From the IMG/VR virus record IMGVR_UViG_3300043777_000088, positions 1-41,638 of that record: a stretch of 41,638 bases of DNA; one strand, written 5' to 3'. The position numbers and the translations under genes are program-made. Within the stretch, counting starts at the first letter, position 1. Each line of letters opens with the position of its first letter. The notes beneath the pieces are model-generated. The model searched no databases and was not told where the DNA came from. It saw only the letters and a program-made list of their open reading frames with translations. This DNA comes from a virus. Shown here one piece after another: positions 1 to 24,057 of the stretch.

Positions 1-208
1 AGACGATGGCCAGATTCGCGTGACCTGGTCCCGCTGGGATCTCGTGCTGTGCTATGGGATGCTCGAACTCGCCAGGACCGACATCACGGACCATGCAAAG
101 GCCTTGCAGCCGCGGATCGCGTCGCCGACGCCAGCCGATGTGCTGCAGCTCCGATCGCGAAACGGGACGTAACCGCCCATGATTCTCGGGCTCGCCGGAC
201 AAACAGCC
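1..208. repeat. Terminal direct repeat, left copy (contig overlap)
   Basis: Identical to 41431-41638 except base 81 (A here, C at 41511). This is the signature of a circular or circularly permuted, terminally redundant genome assembled slightly past its own start. It fits headful packaging as in P22-like phages. It does not locate the physical ends of the virion DNA. Confidence 0.95.
2..172 (+). CDS. Small late protein, 3' part (5' end lies at the far end of the window)
   Basis: This is the C-terminal 56 residues of the 66-residue protein that is complete at 41402-41602; the window cuts it. The TAA stop is at 170-172. The only difference from the complete copy is codon 80-82, GAC (Asp) here against GCC (Ala) there. 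No family is recognised. It sits directly before the gp4-like adaptor gene, so it probably belongs to the tail/connector part of the late operon. Confidence 0.7.
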   Translation, partial: DDGQIRVTWSRWDLVLCYGMLELARTDITDHAKALQPRIASPTPADVLQLRSRNGT

Positions 209-4456: not shown

Positions 4457-5284
4457 ATGCCGACCTCATATCTCGGTCCCGGCGGCCAGCCGCTCACGCT
4501 GCCTCCCGATTGGGGCGGCTGGAATTCCGGCCAGCAACAGAGCTGGCTGTATCAAAACGGCGGCTATCCGGCGGGCGGCACGCCGCCAGCGGCGCCGACC
4601 GTGCCGACGCCGCTCGATGCGAACGGCAACCCGATCAGTTATCCCGGGGGCACGAGCGTTACGGGGCAATCGGTCACGCCGGCGGGGGTGGCCCCGCCGC
4701 CTGGCGCGACCCCCCCAGCGGCGACCCCGCCGCCGGCCTCCAGCGGCGATGGCGGGGGCGGCGGGGGTGGCGGCTCGAACATTCCACCGCTCGGCCCTCC
4801 GAGCCCCTTCGGCGCCCCGTTCCCGACGCTGCCATCGACGCCCGTCTTCACGCCGCCGTCCTACACGCCGCCGCCCGCGTTCCAGGCGCCGAGCGTCGCG
4901 CAGGCGATGGCGGCTCCCGGCTACCAGTTTCAGGAACAGCAAGGCCTGACGGACTTGCAGAACTGGGCTGCGGCCAAGGGCACGCTGAACGATTCCGACA
5001 CCGGGCAAGCCCTCGAACAATTCGGGCAGCAGTCGGCGCAGAGCGATTACGCGAACGTCTACAATCAGGCGCTCCAGGGCTATAACACGAACTATCAGAC
5101 GCAATACACGGACCCCTATGCGATTGCGTTCCAGGGGGCCACGGCGGCGTTTGCGCCGCAGATGACGGGCTATACGACGCAAGCCAATCAGGGGCAGGCG
5201 AGTTGGCAGGACGCCTACTCGCTGTGGTTGGCGCAAAATCAGCTCACGCAAGGCACGCAGGGCCTTGCGATTCAGGCCGGCTAA
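4457..5284 (+). CDS. Probable ejection-associated virion protein, Gly/Pro-rich
   Basis: 275 residues, starting directly at the base after the previous stop. The first 150 residues are low complexity (Pro/Thr stretches and a run of eight glycines near residue 100). The folded part begins near residue 150: APGYQFQEQQGLTDLQNWAA followed by AKGTLNDSDTGQALEQFGQQ, a pattern I know from phage proteins encoded beside DNA-transfer proteins (usual form PGYQFRL...GLKAL..SAAARG). The C-terminus is Gln/Tyr-rich helical. A role in the internal core or ejection conduit is inferred. Confidence 0.6.
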   Translation: MPTSYLGPGGQPLTLPPDWGGWNSGQQQSWLYQNGGYPAGGTPPAAPTVPTPLDANGNPISYPGGTSVTGQSVTPAGVAPPPGATPPAATPPPASSGDGGGGGGGGSNIPPLGPPSPFGAPFPTLPSTPVFTPPSYTPPPAFQAPSVAQAMAAPGYQFQEQQGLTDLQNWAAAKGTLNDSDTGQALEQFGQQSAQSDYANVYNQALQGYNTNYQTQYTDPYAIAFQGATAAFAPQMTGYTTQANQGQASWQDAYSLWLAQNQLTQGTQGLAIQAG

Positions 5285-19507: not shown

Positions 19508-19717
19508 ATGAGCAACCACACCACGCGCCTGCACCGCATGTCAGCTAGCCAGCTTTTGCGTCAGGGCATCGGCACCGTGCCGACTATCGTCGACGTCGTG
19601 CGTCTTCGCGTCACGCTTCGCTGCAACGAGTGTGGCCATACCTGGCGCGTGTCGCCGAACGCCAGCGACCCGCAGTGCGCCCGCTGCAACTCGGTGGATT
19701 GGGAGGTGAAGGCATGA
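19508..19717 (+). CDS. Small zinc-ribbon protein
   Basis: 69 residues. The C-terminal half carries VTLRCNECGHTWRVSPNASD then PQCARCNSVDWEV, two C-x2-C knuckles 18 residues apart, a rubredoxin-like zinc ribbon. The N-terminus is basic. Overlaps the next gene by ATGA. Probably binds nucleic acid or protein; no specific role visible. Confidence 0.75.
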   Translation: MSNHTTRLHRMSASQLLRQGIGTVPTIVDVVRLRVTLRCNECGHTWRVSPNASDPQCARCNSVDWEVKA

Positions 19718-21561
19718 CCACCCACTACCTGCCGGCGTATACCGTTCACAAGCACCGGCTCCAGCAAGCGGCGTGCGGCCTCTTCATTTCGTCGGCGCAG
19801 CATTCCACCACGCCGACTTGCGACGCCTGCGCGGCGTGGCTCAAAGCGCTCGACGAGGACGACGAAGCGACCGCCGTCGCGCTCGAAGCCGAGTTCAGCG
19901 AATTCCGCGGGAAGCAGTCGCACGCGATGAGCGTCAACCTGCTGCTCATCGACCTCTCCAGCATCGCGCATCCGCTCTTCCATGTTAGCGCGAGCGACCC
20001 GGATCCCAATGCCACGAGCATCAAGACGGTCGAGCGCGTGCGCGCCCTTGCCAGCGGGCAGCCGCATGTCGCCATCGCGTGCGACTGCGGGCGCAGCTTT
20101 CGCAAAGACCTCAGTCCCGACTACAAAGCCAATCGCCCTGAGCATGACGCCACGCTCCAGCATCAGATCAACCTCGCCATCGACACGCTCAAAGCCGACG
20201 GCTTTCCGGTATGGGAAGCGAAAGGGTATGAGGCCGATGACATCATCGGCACGGCGGTGCGTATTGCCACCACGCCTATCGGCAATGACCAGATTCCGCT
20301 CGCCGATAGCGTGACCGTGGCGACGCAGGACAAGGATTTGATGCAGCTGATCGGGCCACACGTCACCGTCCATGCGCTCACGACCGGCACGCACTATGAT
20401 GCCGACGCCGTCACCGCGAAATACGGCGTCACGCCGAATCAGATTGTGGATTTTCTCACGTTGACGGGCGACACGAGCGATAACGTCAAGGGCGCGAAAG
20501 GCATTGGCCCGAAGATCGCCGCGGGCCTGTTGCAGAAGTATGGCAACCTCGATGACCTCTACGATGCGGTCATCAACCACGGCACGCAGTTCACGCCCGC
20601 GCTGGCGACCAGTTTGCGCGAGTTCAAGGCCCGCATGGAGCTGACGCGCGAGCTGATTCGCCTGAAGACCGACGCGCCGATTCCGTTCGACGACATCTGG
20701 AAGCCGCGCGTGCCGGCCGATACCGAAGCGTTCGGCGATGACATCGACTTCGCGATGCAGAGCCTTGACGTTGGCGTGCCTGCCAGCTCGCCCCTTGCAG
20801 TCGGCGCGGGACAAACAGGCCAGACGATTACGATCACGACAACGCCAGAGCTCGACGCTCCTTCGGCGCCGCTCTCTCAACCTGGAGCCCCTCCGTCACC
20901 ACGCACTGAGCCGAAAGGTGAGCACGGAGCGGTTGACGGGGCTCAGTCGGCGCCCATTCCACCGACAGGTAGCTCACCGGTAGAGCGCCACGTTGAAGCC
21001 GTGGGCGCAGCAGGTTCGACTCCTGCCCTGTCGGCCATTTCTCCTCCAGTCGACCTAGCGCCCGTGTCCTATGAGCGCCAACTGGAGCCGACCTCCCTGC
21101 GCGAGTGCGCCACCTTGGCGAGCGAGATGTTCAAGTCGCGTCTGTTCTCCGCCTACGGGACGCCCCAGGGAGTGCTCTCGACGATTCTCGCAGGGCGAGA
21201 GATGGGGCTGAGTGCGATGGCGTCGCTCAGAGGGTTTTTCATCGTGGAGGGTAAGCCGACACTGAGCGCGGATTTGATTCGCGCGCTGGTCATTCGCAGC
21301 GGAAAGGCGAAGTTCTTTCGTCCCGTCGAGCGCACAGCGGAACGCGCGACGTGGGAAACGCAGCGTGGCGATGATCCACCGTTCACGCTGAGCTACACGA
21401 TCGAAGAGGCGCGGATCGCCGGCCTCATCAAGAAGGGGAGCGGCTGGGAAAAGTCGCCAGCCGACATGTTGACGGCGAGAGCCTCCGCGAAACTCGCACG
21501 CCTCATTTACAGTGACATCGTGTTCAACCTCTACGACCCGACAGAGGTAGAGAACTCGTGA
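19714..21561 (+). CDS. Fusion: zinc-type head, FEN 5'-3' exonuclease, RecT-like annealing domain
   Basis: 615 residues. Residues 1-71: a short Cys motif (TPTCDACAAWL) of a separate small phage protein type. Residues 72-350: complete FEN/T5-type exonuclease with LLLIDLSS, YKANRP, GYEADDIIG, TQDKDLMQLI and GDTSDNVKGAKGIGPKIAAG. Residues 353-449: Pro/Ser/Ala linker whose DNA holds a hairpin and a complete tRNA (20963-21037). Residues 450-615: SSAP-type domain (ILAGREMGLSAMASLRGFFI, LSADLIRALVIRSGKAKFF, FTLSYTIEEARIAGLIKKGS). Exonuclease plus annealing protein is the logic of lambda Exo/Beta, here in one chain. Internal starts are possible at ATG 19927 (exonuclease) and GTG 21064 (annealing part), neither with a good ribosome-binding site. 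All three reading-frame parts are open without stops. Confidence 0.85.
   Translation: MTTHYLPAYTVHKHRLQQAACGLFISSAQHSTTPTCDACAAWLKALDEDDEATAVALEAEFSEFRGKQSHAMSVNLLLIDLSSIAHPLFHVSASDPDPNATSIKTVERVRALASGQPHVAIACDCGRSFRKDLSPDYKANRPEHDATLQHQINLAIDTLKADGFPVWEAKGYEADDIIGTAVRIATTPIGNDQIPLADSVTVATQDKDLMQLIGPHVTVHALTTGTHYDADAVTAKYGVTPNQIVDFLTLTGDTSDNVKGAKGIGPKIAAGLLQKYGNLDDLYDAVINHGTQFTPALATSLREFKARMELTRELIRLKTDAPIPFDDIWKPRVPADTEAFGDDIDFAMQSLDVGVPASSPLAVGAGQTGQTITITTTPELDAPSAPLSQPGAPPSPRTEPKGEHGAVDGAQSAPIPPTGSSPVERHVEAVGAAGSTPALSAISPPVDLAPVSYERQLEPTSLRECATLASEMFKSRLFSAYGTPQGVLSTILAGREMGLSAMASLRGFFIVEGKPTLSADLIRALVIRSGKAKFFRPVERTAERATWETQRGDDPPFTLSYTIEEARIAGLIKKGSGWEKSPADMLTARASAKLARLIYSDIVFNLYDPTEVENS
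20885..20944 (+). other. Hairpin just upstream of the nested tRNA
   Basis: GAGCCCC (20885-20891) pairs with GGGGCTC (20938-20944); inside it TCCGT and CACC pair with ACGGA and GGTG across a 3-base bulge. Ends 18 bases before the tRNA. May assist tRNA processing or terminate the exonuclease message. Confidence 0.55.
20963..21037 (+). tRNA. tRNA-Phe (GAA)-like, nested in the exonuclease-RecT reading frame, CCA encoded
   Basis: Complete cloverleaf with no mismatches: acceptor CGACAGG/CCTGTCG (20963-20969, 21027-21033), T8 A9, D stem GCTC/GAGC with loop ACCGGTA (GG conserved), anticodon stem CCACG/CGTGG, loop TTGAAGC with anticodon GAA at 20995-20997, 5-base variable loop, T stem GCAGG/CCTGC with loop TTCGACT, discriminator G and genomic CCA (21035-21037). 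Unusual for tRNA-Phe are G37 and discriminator G instead of A, so charging identity is uncertain. It lies on the same strand as the gene that contains it and is read through in frame as protein linker. Confidence 0.9.
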
Positions 21562-23552: not shown

Positions 23553-23830
23553 ACACCGCACATAAGGGACGCCGTGCCGAACATCGCGCGCGGGCCTTGC
23601 TCGAGGCCGCTGGCTTTCAGGTCTGTCGCTCGGCCGGATCGAAAGGCCCCGCTGATCTCATCGCGTGGAATACTACGTCTATTCGCTTCGTGAGCGTGAA
23701 GAGCGGCACGACCTACGCGAGCGCGCTCGAACGCGAAACGCTGGAACTCCTGCCGCGGCCCGCGAACGCCTCCGTGGAAATTTGGCGCTACCCTGATCGC
23801 GCCACGCAGCCGATTATCGAACGACTCTGA
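23549..23830 (+). CDS. PD-(D/E)xK nuclease, Holliday-junction-resolvase-like
   Basis: 93 residues. KGRRAEHRARALLEAAGFQV, then SAGSKGPADLIAW and IRFVSVKSG follow the resolvase/VRR-type core: N-terminal Glu, the Asp of ADLIAW, and Lys of VSVKSG. The acidic or Gln residue that usually stands two before this Lys is Ser, so activity may be reduced. It would act on branched recombination intermediates made by the upstream exonuclease/annealing protein. ATGA overlap with the gene before. Confidence 0.75.
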   Translation: MNTAHKGRRAEHRARALLEAAGFQVCRSAGSKGPADLIAWNTTSIRFVSVKSGTTYASALERETLELLPRPANASVEIWRYPDRATQPIIERL

Positions 23831-23836
23831 TATACT
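23828..23836 (+). promoter_or_regulatory. Extended -10 promoter element
   Basis: TGATATACT: TG, one base, then TATACT (5 of 6). No good -35 is seen at 16-18 bases. Predicted start about 23842-23844, at the first base pairs of the structured RNA, immediately after the nuclease stop (23828-23830). Confidence 0.55.
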
Positions 23837-23840
23837 GCCC

Positions 23841-23909
23841 ACGCCGGGCGGGGCTTTGGCCGGCCCCCGTTCGACGCGCCCGCTGCTTTTCCAGCGAGCG
23901 GCCCGGCGT
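23841..23909 (+). ncRNA. Predicted three-way-junction leader RNA
   Basis: P1: ACGCCGGGC (23841-23849) with GCCCGGCGT (23901-23909), 9 perfect pairs. P2: GGGGC/GCCCC (23850-23854, 23863-23867). P3: 23877-23885 with 23892-23900, 8 pairs and one C-A mismatch, loop CTTTTC. P1-P2 and P3-P1 join without linkers; P2-P3 has 9 bases (23868-23876). The element fills a gap otherwise without genes, begins at the predicted transcription start and lies upstream of a hairpin covering the next ribosome-binding site. Not a tRNA. Could be a cis-regulatory RNA or small RNA. Confidence 0.55.
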
Positions 23910-23919
23910 TCTTTCTCTT

Positions 23920-23935
23920 CACCTGAAAAGAGGTG
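23920..23935 (+). promoter_or_regulatory. Hairpin over the ribosome-binding site of the 38-residue peptide
   Basis: CACCT (23920-23924) pairs with AGGTG (23931-23935), loop GAAAAG, hiding the AGAGGTG ribosome-binding site 5 bases before the ATG at 23941. A competing stem CTCTT (23915-23919) with AAGAG (23928-23932) also exists, so the site could switch between two folds. Confidence 0.5.
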
Positions 23936-23940
23936 TAGAC

Positions 23941-24057
23941 ATGCCCGCCCGTTTCAAACGTGTGATTGTCGCTTTCTTGTGTCGGTTGCCGCAGCGCGTG
24001 TCTGCGCCGCTGGCCCGCGGCATCGTGCGCGTCTGGCCCGGCTTCACATCGGCGTAA
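23941..24057 (+). CDS. Small basic hydrophobic peptide before the primase
   Basis: 38 residues: MPARFKRVIVAFLCRLPQRV then SAPLARGIVRVWPGFTSA. Basic, amphipathic, with one short hydrophobic stretch (VIVAFL). The AGAGGTG ribosome-binding site is among the best in the window. It ends 3 bases before the GTG of the primase-helicase, so it may act as a leader peptide that couples translation to it, under control of the upstream RNA structure. Not recognised. Confidence 0.6.
   Translation: MPARFKRVIVAFLCRLPQRVSAPLARGIVRVWPGFTSA

Follow-up and report, generated by a model that had tools for sequence, protein, structure and literature searches.

A leader RNA that opens the DNA-replication operon of a soil phage was found to belong to an apparently undescribed family whose defining feature is a kissing pair that covaries and joins the loop of a junction arm to that of the hairpin carrying the Shine-Dalgarno (SD) sequence. 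The phage is represented by a virus record of 41,638 bases, all of which was analyzed and is referred to here as the window, and covariance models expanded the family to at least 31 distinct leader sequences from uncultured IMG/VR phages. That the leader is a genuine structured RNA can be regarded as virtually certain, and it probably acts in cis as a brake on the translation of the first open reading frame (ORF) of the operon.

Anatomy of the leader

The members share a common plan consisting of a -10 element, stem P1, a P2 hairpin with a GGCC loop, usually a 3-bp mini-hairpin, the P3 hairpin, a short linker, and the SD hairpin. In the window, the leader spans 23828-23943, and its parts and the genes that follow are arranged as listed below.

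23828-23836 (+), extended -10 element TGATATACT, read as TG-A-TATACT, with the TG at 23828-23829 and the hexamer at 23831-23836 (sequence)
23841-23909 (+), 69-nt junction (sequence and MFE fold)
23841-23849 (+), P1 5' strand ACGCCGGGC (MFE fold and compensatory pairs)
23850-23867 (+), P2 hairpin, loop UUGGCC with the conserved GGCC (fold; GGCC in the P2 region of 29 of 31 members)
23868-23876 (+), mini-hairpin CGU-UCG-ACG in the interval between P2 and P3 (MFE of the window and of several members; weak alone)
23877-23900 (+), P3 hairpin, 3 + 5 bp with one mismatch (fold and covariation)
23886-23891 (+), P3 loop CUUUUC, kissing partner of the SD-hairpin loop
23901-23909 (+), P1 3' strand GCCCGGCGU, running straight on from P3 (fold and compensatory pairs)
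23910-23919 (+), pyrimidine-rich linker, 10 nt in the window and 4 to 13 nt in relatives
23920-23935 (+), SD hairpin CACCU-GAAAAG-AGGUG, with the SD sequence GAGGUG at the loop edge and in the 3' arm
23925-23930 (+), SD-hairpin loop GAAAAG, complementary to the P3 loop
23941-24057 (+), 38-codon ORF, the first of the operon, with a peptide at the same position in L001, L003, and L232
24061-25842 (+), primase-helicase (Toprim/zinc ribbon plus AAA_25), starting 3 nt past the stop of the 38-codon ORF

P1 of the window comprises 9 bp, P2 comprises 5 to 6 bp, and P3 comprises 5 + 3 bp, the P3 mismatch being a single C·A. The joints to P1 are direct on both sides, and the MFE junction contains no unpaired joints. 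The MFE of positions 23828 to 23940 was -51.8 kcal/mol, compared with -41.0 ± 3.5 kcal/mol for dinucleotide shuffles (z = -3.1).

An earlier, sequence-only reading of this DNA had proposed an extended -10 element, a 69-nt junction, the SD site AGAGGTG, and a 38-codon ORF, and all four were located in the sequence where that reading had placed them. Its three-way junction stood with respect to the stems and the direct joints but not with respect to the count, because the mini-hairpin makes the MFE junction four-way while contributing just 0.3 kcal/mol; most family members have this mini-hairpin, and some are without it. The same reading had described two mutually exclusive small stems acting as a switch. 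The second of these stems is present in the window (TCTTT paired with AAAGA), but only 10 of the 31 members have a counterpart of 4 bp or more, and the idea of a conserved switch was therefore abandoned. What the relatives conserve instead is the loop-loop kissing pair, the most significant and defining feature of the leader, which the earlier reading had overlooked.

Members of the leader family

No Rfam family matched the leader at the gathering threshold, the sole match in the window being a tRNA elsewhere; relaxed settings returned only sub-threshold matches, and the leaders of the relatives that were scanned gave no Rfam match either. The RNA family is absent from Rfam release 15, in agreement with the earlier proposal of a regulatory leader of no known class. 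A BLASTN search of the leader region against phage records found nothing.

A search with the primase-helicase led to five loci, L001 to L004 and L082, all of which had the same leader anatomy in a different sequence, placed before the first gene of an operon; L082 carried the same leader as L003. In the five-sequence alignment, A3, changes on both sides were seen at 16 of 29 pairs, and 77% of cells paired, compared with 40 to 55% when the partners were slid by 1 to 3 positions; the covariation score of A3 was reached by 0 of 500 shuffles. Compensatory change in P1 and P3 had been set beforehand as the check by which the structure could be refuted, and such change was found in the homologues: P1 and P3 covary, and G-U pairs preserve the stems in many members.

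Further phages (80 loci) were recruited through an alignment of the 5'-3' exonuclease that these phages encode. Covariance model R1, which was built with the stems and without the kissing pair, and a second model, R2, detected leaders in phages that do not have this primase at all; R2, combined with a search that used their VapE-like gene, brought the total to 31 distinct leaders. The closest isolates, as judged by VapE, showed an identity of only 36%. Covariance-model matches in L113 and L304 (E values of 1.9 to 3.5) and in L354 and L338 were judged to be due to chance. Six bacterial genomes gave no match, a result that says little with 150 candidates scored per genome.

Pairing between the P3 loop and the SD-hairpin loop

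In the window, the P3 loop is the exact complement of the SD-hairpin loop. This complementarity was first spotted when five leaders were read side by side, among them L001, in which the loops are CUUUCC and GGAAAG. The first independent match of R1, L232 (E value of 4.8e-5), has the loops CCUUCA and UGAAGG, which would pair perfectly over 6 bp; going by sequence, this is the outcome predicted, with the reservation that R1 does carry loop sequence preferences. In a blind test, the loops of 26 members were taken from separate MFE folds of the leader halves, and at least 5 Watson-Crick bp were obtained for 16 of 26 own pairs versus 23 of 650 swapped pairs; none of 200,000 permutations reached the observed sum of 132, the highest being 91. 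When both halves were parsed jointly, kissing pairs of 5 bp or more were present in 29 of 31 own combinations versus 148 of 930 swapped ones. All four Watson-Crick pairs occurred at each of the six kissing positions among 28 nonredundant members, in whose alignment the pairing percentages, unlike the pair types, arise partly by construction.

A strict structural descriptor was run over 7.45 Mb on both strands, overlapping loci included. It returned 22 distinct sites, every one of them a leader, and none in shuffled DNA, and it recovered L462 and L466, which the covariance models had overlooked; a relaxed descriptor added L459, with the loops CCGUCA and UGACGG. A loose descriptor tried at the outset had been dropped after giving hundreds of chance matches. 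The weak members are L483, which shows no clear kissing pair, and L002, with a 5-bp pair that includes one wobble. Most members have a kissing helix with no interruption, and in the members parsed the SD bases are located in the loop and the 3' arm of the SD hairpin. The helix of the window is rich in A/U pairs and, taken as a plain duplex, is weak (-3.1 kcal/mol).

Promoter and downstream genes

A -10-like hexamer ends 4 to 12 nt before P1 in 28 of the 31 members, whereas at random positions of these loci the frequency is 2.8%. Such a spacing puts the predicted transcript start among the initial bases of P1, at about 23841 to 23844 in the window. Sequence comparison supports both the SD-covering hairpin and the promoter at the foot of the leader that the earlier reading had put forward. 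In L002, the leader promoter is directly preceded by a strong hairpin and T run resembling an intrinsic terminator (2820-2873), which would insulate the operon.

The gene that follows the leader varies, encoding a Toprim/AAA_25 primase-helicase, an AAA_25 helicase, or a VapE-like protein, and the leader precedes replication operons irrespective of the type of helicase encoded. Some leaders are followed first by a short ORF of about 9 to 150 codons, and in some relatives a first ORF of 9 to 10 codons overlaps the next start. Between leader and primase, a conserved basic peptide of 37 to 39 codons ending in W-P/S-G-F/Y is encoded at 23941-24057 in the window, at 2881-2994 in L001, at 2885-2995 in L003, and from 2878 in L232; a Pfam search gave no match for the 38-codon peptide.

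Two phages have a second leader copy, located at 4525-4622 (-) in L337 and at 71-168 (+) in L475, and the two leaders within each phage have different loop pairs. The second leader of L337 precedes a 90-codon ORF and then a PAPS-reductase-like gene, identified by eye. The terminase relatives L222 to L227 were set aside, having other replication modules and no leader; in L222, L223, and L227, the terminase is 65 to 69% identical, yet the replication module is different and the leader is missing, a pattern that points to module swapping. The window also contains a strong tRNA-Phe (GAA) gene at 20963-21037, on the same strand and inside the long ORF 19630-21561, where it falls between the 5'-3' exonuclease domain and the conserved C-terminal part; ARAGORN found no tRNA in the related loci scanned except a tRNA-Ser elsewhere in L335.

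A probable cis-acting translational brake

Comparison of the member sequences establishes the helices and the kissing pair, the placement of the promoter, and the association with replication operons; from these we infer occlusion of the SD sequence, its regulation, and a signal that would open it. The leader probably acts in cis to restrain translation of the ORF that heads the replication operon. Transcription would start at the foot of P1, and the junction would fold first, exposing the P3 loop, with which the loop of the emerging SD hairpin would then pair fully, over 6 to 7 bp. The SD sequence would lie partly in the kissing helix and partly in the 3' arm of the SD stem and should therefore be inaccessible, so that ribosomes would be kept off, and the ORFs coupled to the first one (38 codons here and 9 to 10 codons in some relatives) would likewise be repressed. 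For release, a ribosome, a protein, or another trans factor would have to open the kissing pair, perhaps by acting on the conserved part formed by P1 and the GGCC loop. The uninterrupted helix of most members suggests that the loops dock by default and that the regulatory factor would open the contact, not close it.

Rough helix geometry suggests that a linker of 4 to 13 nt is too short for a P3 loop stacked end to end on P1. Kissing in cis would require P3 to be folded back beside P1, an arrangement that the leader could adopt, as four-way junctions permit it, and the similar lengths of P1 (7 to 11 bp) and P3 (mostly 8 to 10 bp) across the family fit such a placement. The short linker may also leave room for intermolecular pairing.

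Alternative explanations

Pairing between leader RNAs, through the complementary loops together with the GGCC loop, which is self-complementary, would offer control of copy number or co-infection like that exerted by plasmid antisense RNAs, with loop identity as the specificity; the linkers are short for cis kissing, and loop bases do set incompatibility in IncK plasmids (PMC10724649). Divergence within the family bears on this. Among closely related pairs, differing sites amounted to 3% in P1, 4% in the SD stem, 17% in P3, 18% in other parts, and 32% in the two loops, so that P1 and the SD stem are nearly frozen, and the leaders of L365 and L370 differ by three matched bases in each loop, six in all, plus three bases before the start codon. 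The different loop pairs within L337 and within L475 also fit a code of this kind. However, fourfold-degenerate sites of the downstream genes differ by 18 to 52% in comparable pairs; the loops therefore appear to drift at about the neutral rate with their complementarity kept, and the 32% divergence is not clearly above neutral. Diversifying selection on the loops is possible; positive selection is not claimed, the divergence being close to that at fourfold sites. In addition, the partners lie on one RNA, 33 nt apart, which favors pairing in cis, and the only candidate antisense promoter in the window is one weak minus-strand match (23841-23813). Matched loops that serve as a specificity code, with same-loop leaders acting in trans by dimerization or loop exchange, are thus unlikely. 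If this were true, it would amount to plasmid-like RNA incompatibility or copy-number sensing of replication, with loop pairs that diversify in concert on an otherwise constant leader.

A metabolite riboswitch, in which the junction would be an aptamer and a ligand would make or break the kissing pair, seems quite unlikely. It would share its logic with the cobalamin riboswitch (env8, btuB; RF00174), in which occlusion of the ribosome-binding site comes from kissing between the loop of its hairpin and a junction arm (PMC10907184). This expression platform is the nearest known arrangement to the phage leader, where the corresponding contact of at least 5 bp is present in 29 of 31 members, and the conserved GGCC loop of P2 could belong to an aptamer. 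However, ligand dependence of the cobalamin riboswitch comes from a bulge of one or two bases in the helix between the loops (PMC10907184), whereas the kissing helix of the leader is mostly uninterrupted. The leader has neither a cobalamin core nor an Rfam match, its junction domain measures about 70 nt, and it precedes replication genes rather than metabolic ones. The junction and its J-strands show no conserved unpaired core; by inspection, the only recurring elements are the P2 GGCC loop and GGGC/GCCC in P1, although a core could be small.

A stem at the 5' end is the usual arrangement for protection of mRNA 5' ends, and in nearly all members the expected 5' end is where P1 starts. The kissing fold might then favor expression, through such protection or by presenting the SD sequence after a threshold event. 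This is decidedly improbable, as the folded state covers the SD sequence and 29 of 31 members retain the kissing pair, which a stem serving only for protection could do without. A DNA-level feature that merely resembles RNA, such as an operator or a replication origin, is hardly credible and was rejected, for although P2 is a near-perfect palindrome in some members and the site precedes replication genes, the stems are maintained through G-U pairs in many members, the loop complementarity overlaps the SD sequence, and the element lies on the coding strand directly before the start codon.

Comparison with other leader RNAs

The translational operator of T4 gene 32 is a pseudoknotted leader on the gene of a phage replication protein and is bound by gp32 itself. 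Its fold differs from that of the phage leader, and we know of no SD-hairpin kissing pair in it. The phage-associated structured RNA int-alpA (RF02996) had no match in the window or in the members scanned against Rfam. It was seen in two distant primase relatives, L009 (1643-1711) and L153 (1550-1616), where it is followed by an SD-containing hairpin that is apparently complementary to the upstream structure; a similar loop contact may exist in these two loci.

In the guanidine-II riboswitch (mini-ykkC), as outlined in PMC9300104, a kissing loop-loop contact joins two leader hairpins. The contact of the phage leader differs in having 6 to 7 bp of freely varying sequence and in running from a junction arm to the SD hairpin, and the guanidine-II Rfam model gave no match to the leader. 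In the rep leader and RNAI of I-complex plasmids (IncI/IncK/IncB), kissing loop bases set specificity (PMC10724649). As in the phage leader, these RNA loops lie upstream of a replication gene; the plasmids use a separate antisense RNA in trans, whereas the phage leader carries the complementary loop in the same RNA and is not known to have an antisense partner.

Significance

The leader family is carried by a wide group of uncultured phages, and the leader persists before the replication genes when the replicase is swapped among the Toprim primase-helicase, AAA_25 helicase, and VapE-like types. It resembles a natural lock on a ribosome-binding site, one that would work through kissing loops, be programmable by sequence, and come with more than 20 ready-made loop pairs. 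Control of the dosage of phage replication proteins thereby becomes testable by simple reporter swaps in laboratory strains, and the family may supply orthogonal translational switches.
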